A stretch of 32,583 nucleotides of DNA from Candidatus Faecicola pullistercoris (GTDB taxonomy: Bacteria; Bacillota; Clostridia; Christensenellales; CAG-917). The stretch is taken from assembly GCA_018714105.1 (NCBI GenBank), contig DVNW01000017.1, positions 1-32,583 of the forward strand, written 5' to 3'. The notes under the pieces were generated by a model. The model was not told where the DNA came from, ran no database searches, and was given only the letters and a program-made list of their open reading frames with translations. Positions 1 through 1,033 of the stretch are shown one piece after another (position 1 is the stretch's first letter; each line of letters opens with the position of its first letter). The position numbers and the translations under genes were made by a program.

Positions 1-462
1 AAACAAAAAGACGTTGATTTTAAGAGCATATGGCAGTCAAAGAAAAATGGCAGGAACGGTTATGATTATAAGAACAGATTAGATACTTCAAATAATTTTG
101 CATTGCTATCATTAAAATGGATTCAACGAGAATTTGAACATAGCGAAGACAAATATGCATGTCCTAAATTTCGAAGAATTAAAGATATAAGAAATTATTT
201 GGAACATAAATACACAATAGTAAATATGTTTGAAAATTCGATCGAGAATAGTCATAGTAAGGAAGAGAAAGTTGCTTTAAATATTTCCGAAATAGAACTA
301 AGTAGCCATACTCTTATGCTGTTAAAACTTGTTCGAGAGGCCATAATTTGTGTCGCATTATGTGTAAATGTAGAAGAAAGAAATAGAATTGCAAAACGCG
401 GTAAAAATTTTGCTGCTTTGCAAATGATAGTAAACCAGTTTGATGATGAATATAAAATTTAA
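1..462 (+). CDS. 3' part of HEPN-domain protein (LA2681-like), truncated by window edge
   Basis: The frame is open from base 1, so the start lies outside the window; a TTG at 103 could be read as a start but has no ribosome-binding site and cuts a continuous frame. The visible 153 residues are charged and helical. They contain R-N-Y-L-E-H (codons 190-207), an Rx4H motif of the kind that forms the RNase active site in HEPN domains. The surrounding KDIRNYLEHKY resembles, from memory, the LA2681-like HEPN family, whose members are predicted RNases in defence or toxin contexts. The gene is very AT-rich (12 G/C in bases 181-240) against the GC-balanced genes after 1034, which suggests acquisition. 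The HEPN fold and Rx4H are reasonably supported; the exact family and any defence role are inference. Its partner domains upstream cannot be seen. Confidence 0.6.
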   Translation, partial: KQKDVDFKSIWQSKKNGRNGYDYKNRLDTSNNFALLSLKWIQREFEHSEDKYACPKFRRIKDIRNYLEHKYTIVNMFENSIENSHSKEEKVALNISEIELSSHTLMLLKLVREAIICVALCVNVEERNRIAKRGKNFAALQMIVNQFDDEYKI

Positions 463-635: not shown

Positions 636-746
636 ATATTGCAAAGTCTATGCTTTCTCTTAATCCGTCTACCATATGGAGAAGAAGAAAAAGTATACAA
701 AATAAATATCTGAATATTGTACATATATTAATATATTATATTTTAG

Positions 747-882
747 CCCGGTCAAAGCGCATAAGTTAAGGACCGTGCCAACCTTAAACCGGGTATCTTT
801 ACCTCAGACCGCAAATCGCACGTTTACGGCTTGCGGATGAAGCCGCCTTATAATAATAAGTAAAAAATTACCGTTTTGCGGC
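747..882 (+). other. Multi-hairpin leader region upstream of pnuC, class unknown
   Basis: CCCGGT (747-752) pairs with ACCGGG (788-793) and encloses TTAAGG (766-771) paired with CCTTAA (782-787). CCGCAA (809-814) pairs with TTGCGG (831-836). GCCGC (842-846) pairs with GCGGC (878-882) around a small CTTAT/ATAAG hairpin (847-860). These sit in an otherwise gene-free stretch ahead of the transporter gene, in the position of a 5' leader. I looked for TPP, FMN, preQ1-I, purine, cobalamin, c-di-GMP-I, ZTP and T-box signatures and recognise none. It may be a riboswitch of a class I do not recognise, a separate small RNA, or part of the acquired island. 883-972 shows nothing further. Confidence 0.4.
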
Positions 883-972
883 GCATTAGGAATTAAAACG
901 CTTTACTAAATTTCAAATAAGTGGTATTATTTAAAAAGCTTAATAAAAATCAACTGCCACCGGGTAGTACTC

Positions 973-1027
973 GCATTCATTCGGATATCGTTAGGTCATA
1001 GAAGATATTCGGCATGGATGCTTTTTT
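973..1027 (+). terminator. Terminator-like hairpin directly before pnuC start
   Basis: GCATTCAT (973-980) pairs with ATGGATGC (1014-1021), with one G-U pair. GATATC (984-989) pairs inside it with GATATT (1004-1009), again with one G-U pair, and six T follow (1022-1027). This has the shape of an intrinsic terminator, yet its T-run ends only 6 nt before the pnuC ATG, so it would switch off the gene it precedes. That is the arrangement expected of a transcription-attenuating leader. Confidence 0.5.
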
Positions 1028-1033
1028 AAAACT

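Follow-up and report, generated by a model that had tools for sequence, protein, structure and literature searches.

The guanidine-IV riboswitch has been described as two hairpins and a pseudoknot, with conserved residues in the second loop and an intrinsic terminator as the 3′ hairpin, and as an ON switch that works by antitermination (PMC7736828, PMC11611296, PMC12186494). Its discoverers named sugE/SMR, MATE and PnuC genes as targets (PMC7736828). Here we analyse a 32,583-nt stretch of Candidatus Faecicola pullistercoris DNA (contig DVNW01000017.1, positions 1 to 32,583; "the window"), in which an RNA switch element of about 75 bases lies at positions 952-1027, directly 5′ of a PnuC-family gene (1034-1750, 238 amino acids). 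The element, the gene and all features of the leader given below are on the forward strand. As judged from structure, covariation, reciprocal-model membership and gene set, the element is very probably a guanidine-IV (mepA / GGAM-1) riboswitch that controls the PnuC-family gene through transcription termination; the ligand and ON switching of the class were shown by others, on other members.

Structure and conservation of the element

The element is made up of a small hairpin, P1, and an intrinsic terminator, connected by a 3-bp loop-loop pseudoknot. P1 spans 953-968 (ACTGCC-ACCG-GGTAGT, loop 959-962), and in our alignment A1 pair changes were found at four of its six pairs. The loop bases ACC (959-961) form the 5′ side of the pseudoknot, their partner being GGT at 994-996. 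A very short linker of 4 nt (969-972) leads to the terminator hairpin, P2 (973-1021), in which folding energy and covariation both point to outer pairs 973-979/1015-1021 and inner pairs 983-989/1004-1010. The terminal loop GTTAGGTCATAGAA (990-1003), conserved in A1, contains the 3′ side of the pseudoknot and the presumed ligand pocket; this apical part of the terminator is a compact loop of 14 nt, with no conserved apical stem. Folding of 970-1033 gave a minimum free energy of -19.6 kcal/mol, much more stable than shuffled sequence (z = -4.2). The U-tract, read from the sequence, occupies 1022-1027 and stops 6 nt short of the ATG at 1034, and no Shine-Dalgarno sequence was found between the two. 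A preliminary description of this DNA had already pointed out the terminator-like hairpin, its distance from the start codon and the missing Shine-Dalgarno sequence, and on these points our analysis agrees with it. P1 and the pairing of its loop with the terminator loop had been overlooked.

To assess conservation, we compared the window leader with those of 80 close PnuC homologues from Clostridia. A conserved block lay directly upstream of the gene in 73 of the 81 leaders, the window counted, and comprised CTGCCACCGGGTAG, a short linker and a terminator whose loop, GUUAGGUCnnnGAA, is conserved, the T-run being kept in relatives. RNAalifold analysis of 70 sequences returned P1 and the two-part terminator stem, with compensatory changes at 15 of 22 pairs. 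When the pseudoknot was included, 98.4% of cells paired, and double-change cells numbered 127, against 29.1 in column shuffles and no more than 30 in slid controls. The proposal of the preliminary description that a riboswitch ending in a terminator precedes pnuC is thereby upheld, through the comparison of homologous leaders that it had suggested. In a second set of 52 sequences, which included other gene classes and was nearly all absent from model building, 268 double-change cells were counted against 69 in shuffles; this alignment was fitted to the structure of the model, which favours the helices and not the pseudoknot.

The pseudoknot itself was followed over 121 leaders. The loop pairs were ACC/GGU in 105, GCC/GGC in nine and GCC/GGU in four, with three broken and no case of ACC/GGC. 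The 3′ base was C only where the loop base was G (9/9 leaders), an exchange of A-U for G-C that occurs in SMR-, MATE- and PnuC-linked members. A plain intrinsic terminator of an upstream unit, with no response to a ligand, would explain the hairpin and T-run, which are of textbook form. Such a terminator, however, needs no invariant loops, P1 or covarying pseudoknot, all of which are conserved across the phylum, and the element precedes transporter genes or a small set of enzyme genes. We therefore regard this explanation as extremely improbable.

Departures from the common form were seen in individual PnuC leaders. In L083:918-1001 the terminator and its loop are kept and P1 is lost, so that presumably no switching occurs. 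In L023:2822-3000 a long inverted repeat (TAAGGAAAC...GTTTCCTTA) is inserted 3′ of the pseudoknot strand and produces a long apical hairpin.

Assignment to the guanidine-IV class

We built a covariance model (R1) from the PnuC leaders and used it to search 151 genomes of the order and 398 of the phylum. At 50 loci, the window included, the downstream gene encoded PnuC (26), MATE (11), SMR (3), an SMR remnant (1), a pyridoxamine-oxidase-like protein (4), a radical SAM protein (2), DUF1989 (1), an SfLAP-like protein (1) or, as judged by eye, pyruvate phosphate dikinase (1). Within the genomes of the order, the riboswitch precedes PnuC or, less often, MATE genes. A second model built from non-PnuC members only (R2) had its sole match in the window at 952-1025, with 59.4 bits and E = 7e-16.

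Mutation of G66, U67 or G72 in the L. lactis riboswitch abolishes guanidine binding, and G62, conserved at about 90%, is less strict (PMC7736828). By spacing and conservation, these four bases would correspond to window positions 995, 996, 1001 and 990, respectively, provided that the L. lactis loop is one base shorter, as in leader L008. In the window these are G995, T996, G1001 and G990, all invariant or nearly so in A1. The class is thus taken to be guanidine-IV because architecture, gene set and ligand-essential bases agree with the published riboswitch, for which P1, a loop-loop pseudoknot, an intrinsic terminator, a second loop that conserves G, U and G, targets in Firmicutes (sugE/SMR, MATE and PnuC) and control of guanidine-related enzymes have all been described (PMC7736828). 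That the element is a further member of a known, experimentally validated class, with a target family already reported, is a well-supported conclusion.

Some points weigh against it. Guanidinium is assigned as the ligand of the window copy by analogy, and the likeness to guanidine-IV was judged by described architecture and residue spacing, not by letter-by-letter consensus. The window copy also differs from the published class in its 4-nt linker, which, with an AU-rich terminator stem, may affect switching efficiency. Moreover, characterised PnuC proteins are vitamin importers.

Less expected gene contexts were noted at several loci. A guanidine-IV-like element lies directly upstream of the apparent pyruvate phosphate dikinase gene at L132:1501-1573 (minus strand), an unexpected target identified by eye, and elements at L129:1501-1575 and L130:801-875 (minus strand) lie 5′ of a gene for a small radical SAM protein. 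At L135:1501-1660 the element is followed only by a C-terminal remnant of SMR, the exporter gene having been deleted and the switch kept.

The Rfam 15 scan that the preliminary description had proposed yielded no family match for the window leader, weak ones (RprA, mir-320 and others) being at chance level. In particular, no match to the TPP model was obtained, and a TPP riboswitch was rejected; neither TPP nor NAD-II had been recognised in the preliminary description, and no Rfam match to either contradicts this. The scan also left SMR- and MATE-linked members of the same RNA unmatched, so Rfam 15 seems not to include guanidine-IV, and the test, although it assigned no known class, was unable to decide which class this is. 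The suggestion of an orphan class, on the other hand, does not stand, as the RNA occurs upstream of SMR/SugE, MATE and DUF1989 genes, the set associated with guanidine, and has the guanidine-IV architecture (PMC7736828).

The preliminary description had further suggested sensing of NAD or a precursor. A new NAD or nicotinamide-riboside riboswitch would suit a target in the PnuC family, some members of which import nicotinamide riboside, and pnuC genes of Streptococcus are known targets of the NAD-II class (PMC7749635, PMC8632094). That class, also called NAD+-II or the pnuC motif, likewise sits upstream of pnuC genes, but is described as having two stems, an internal bulge and a pseudoknot to the ribosome binding site, and as occurring almost exclusively in Streptococcus (PMC7749635), and has no architectural likeness to the present element. 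NAD-II itself was rejected: the leader had no Rfam match to it at E ≤10 (the presence of NAD-II in the library being unchecked), no purine-rich ribosome binding site was found, and the architecture resembles that of guanidine-IV. The same RNA precedes SMR, MATE and DUF1989 genes, for none of which a link to NAD is known. In the window's genome no NadR-type gene was found over the cut-off; the NadR and AAA_28 profiles gave sub-threshold matches only, which is suggestive, not proof, of the absence of NadR-type nicotinamide-riboside salvage. With gene set and architecture both pointing to guanidine, sensing of NAD or a precursor has very little probability.

A closer alternative is that the RNA resembles guanidine-IV but has a changed specificity, as Gd4v or another variant, so that the PnuC-linked members would sense a ligand other than guanidine. 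Variants of the same architecture with a different ligand are known and show enrichment in gut bacteria; Gd4v shares the layout of two hairpins and a pseudoknot, the terminator and the gut-bacterial distribution (PMC9788692). A linker hairpin, possible in PnuC-linked members and mostly not in others, would also fit a divergent group. Gd4v, however, is described with an apical hairpin on its terminator and mostly transaminase targets (PMC9788692), and neither is seen here: the window has its compact 14-nt loop where Gd4v has the hairpin, and no transaminase target was recognised among the 50 loci. The missing apical hairpin rules out Gd4v. Gd4v is further marked by a base other than G at position D1, where guanidine-IV members linked to sugE invariably have G; the candidates for D1 in the window (990, 995 and 1001, if D1 is one of the tested mutants) are all G. 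Furthermore, SMR-linked members are picked up by the model built from PnuC leaders, and vice versa. Altered specificity is hence unlikely, and guanidine-IV is the preferred assignment.

Switching mechanism and transcription unit

As a guanidine-IV riboswitch, the element would work as follows. Without ligand, the 3′ hairpin would close fully and RNA polymerase would halt at the U-tract. With guanidinium, the P1 loop ACC (959-961) would pair with the terminator loop GGU (994-996), and this kissing interaction would prevent closure of the terminator, giving read-through and turning pnuC ON. The two states would exclude each other because only 4 nt lie between P1 and the terminator; from this geometry we infer that the kissing arrangement and a fully closed terminator stem are sterically incompatible. 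In the C. botulinum guanidine-IV riboswitch, single-molecule fluorescence resonance energy transfer and transcription data were reported in which a guanidinium-favoured kissing loop hinders completion of the terminator stem (PMC11611296).

Most PnuC-linked relatives could form an additional hairpin, which the window member lacks. A 5-bp hairpin between the linker and the 5′ arm of the terminator was possible in 49 of 70 PnuC-linked members under strict pairing, and in 39 by Watson-Crick pairs alone; examples in A1 are L019:1014-1033, L007, L018 and L053. In a separate folding test it was found in 47/70 PnuC-linked members vs 1/20 others. Where the arm departs from GCATT (21 members), a matching linker segment was present in 15, compared with 3.1 expected from random linkers (none of 2000 draws was as high), in a statistic for which related sequences are not independent. 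The linker segment therefore tracks the terminator arm. The hairpin looks like a candidate antiterminator of the classical type, which would compete for the terminator's 5′ arm. The guanidine-IV class, by contrast, has been described as working without base-pair rearrangement (PMC11611296), and the published passages on the class that are cited here do not mention such a hairpin.

The RNA is expected to begin shortly before P1. A predicted promoter at 902-930 matches the consensus, with a -35 element TTTACT (902-907), a 17-nt spacer and an extended -10 element TG-G-TATTAT (922-930, hexamer 925-930), and in 73 homologous leaders -10-like hexamers cluster 0-29 nt upstream of P1. The transcript would thus start near 937, downstream of the stems at 747-793, 809-836 and 842-882 that the preliminary description had included in the leader. 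Folding of this region was close to that of shuffles (z = -0.76 for 744-890; -1.76, weak, for 744-800; -0.43, no effect, for 805-900), and in 42 further genomes from the same family, 740-936 had no homologues beyond matches of 19-31 bases. A structured leader at 740-900 was accordingly rejected, the region being unconserved, no better folded than shuffles and upstream of the predicted promoter. Of the proposed extent of 740-1033, 952-1027 is retained as the element, and the greater part, 740-950, falls outside it.

At the 3′ end of pnuC, 1751-1785 (AAAAAATCCCGCT...AGCGGGATTTTT) is a likely bidirectional terminator. As the gene that follows runs in the opposite direction, pnuC is probably transcribed alone. 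Further upstream, the contig opens inside an LA2681-like HEPN gene (PF18733, window 1-462), followed by several imperfect inverted repeats at 470-640, e.g. 477-488/517-528.

The PnuC subfamily and guanidine export

The preliminary identification of the gene as PnuC was confirmed by matches to PF04973 (113 bits) and TIGR01528 (67 bits). The only solved structure related to it by sequence is that of the nicotinamide riboside transporter 4qtn (E 3e-17). The window's genome has this as its sole PF04973/PnuC gene, with a single copy of the riboswitch (no second copy was detected in a covariance-model search of the genome) and several MATE proteins without one. SMR had no match in this genome.

PF04973 was present in 45 of the 151 genomes of the order. 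In a phylogenetic tree the motif-linked PnuCs fell into one subfamily, separated by long branches, of which the tool warns, from the order's other PF04973 proteins. Genome G088 has both kinds of PnuC, and the motif occurs only at the subfamily member. Members of the subfamily without the motif are best read as losses. A search for SMR (PF00893) in the same 151 genomes gave nine weak matches, five of them over the cut-off and mostly in frames of about 190-340 amino acids, which look like EamA-type proteins rather than SMR; a clear SMR guanidine exporter was found in none.

The riboswitch in front of these genes suggests that the substrate handled by the PnuC subfamily is guanidine and not a vitamin. 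The window PnuC is most likely an exporter of guanidinium, or a related cation, and not a nicotinamide-riboside importer, and the motif-linked subfamily as a whole plausibly comprises guanidinium exporters. Lenkeit et al. speculated in 2020 that guanidine-IV-linked PnuCs export guanidine (PMC7736828); the literature passages retrieved that name both guanidine riboswitches and pnuC report no transport test. The new details here are the linker hairpin of the PnuC-linked members and the grouping of motif-linked PnuCs in one subfamily. They raise the tentative idea, about which we have slightly more doubt than confidence, that PnuC-linked guanidine-IV RNAs form a sub-class with a base-pair-swapping antiterminator and control a distinct guanidinium-exporting PnuC subfamily in bacteria lacking SMR.

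The analysis removes a false lead, that of a new NAD sensor, and places the leader in a validated class not seen by the Rfam 15 scan, so that annotation based on Rfam misses it. It also strengthens the proposal, made in 2020, that guanidine is handled by some proteins of the PnuC family. If the sub-class and its exporting partners are as envisaged, PnuC would join SMR and the proposed MATE as another fold of transporter that exports guanidine.
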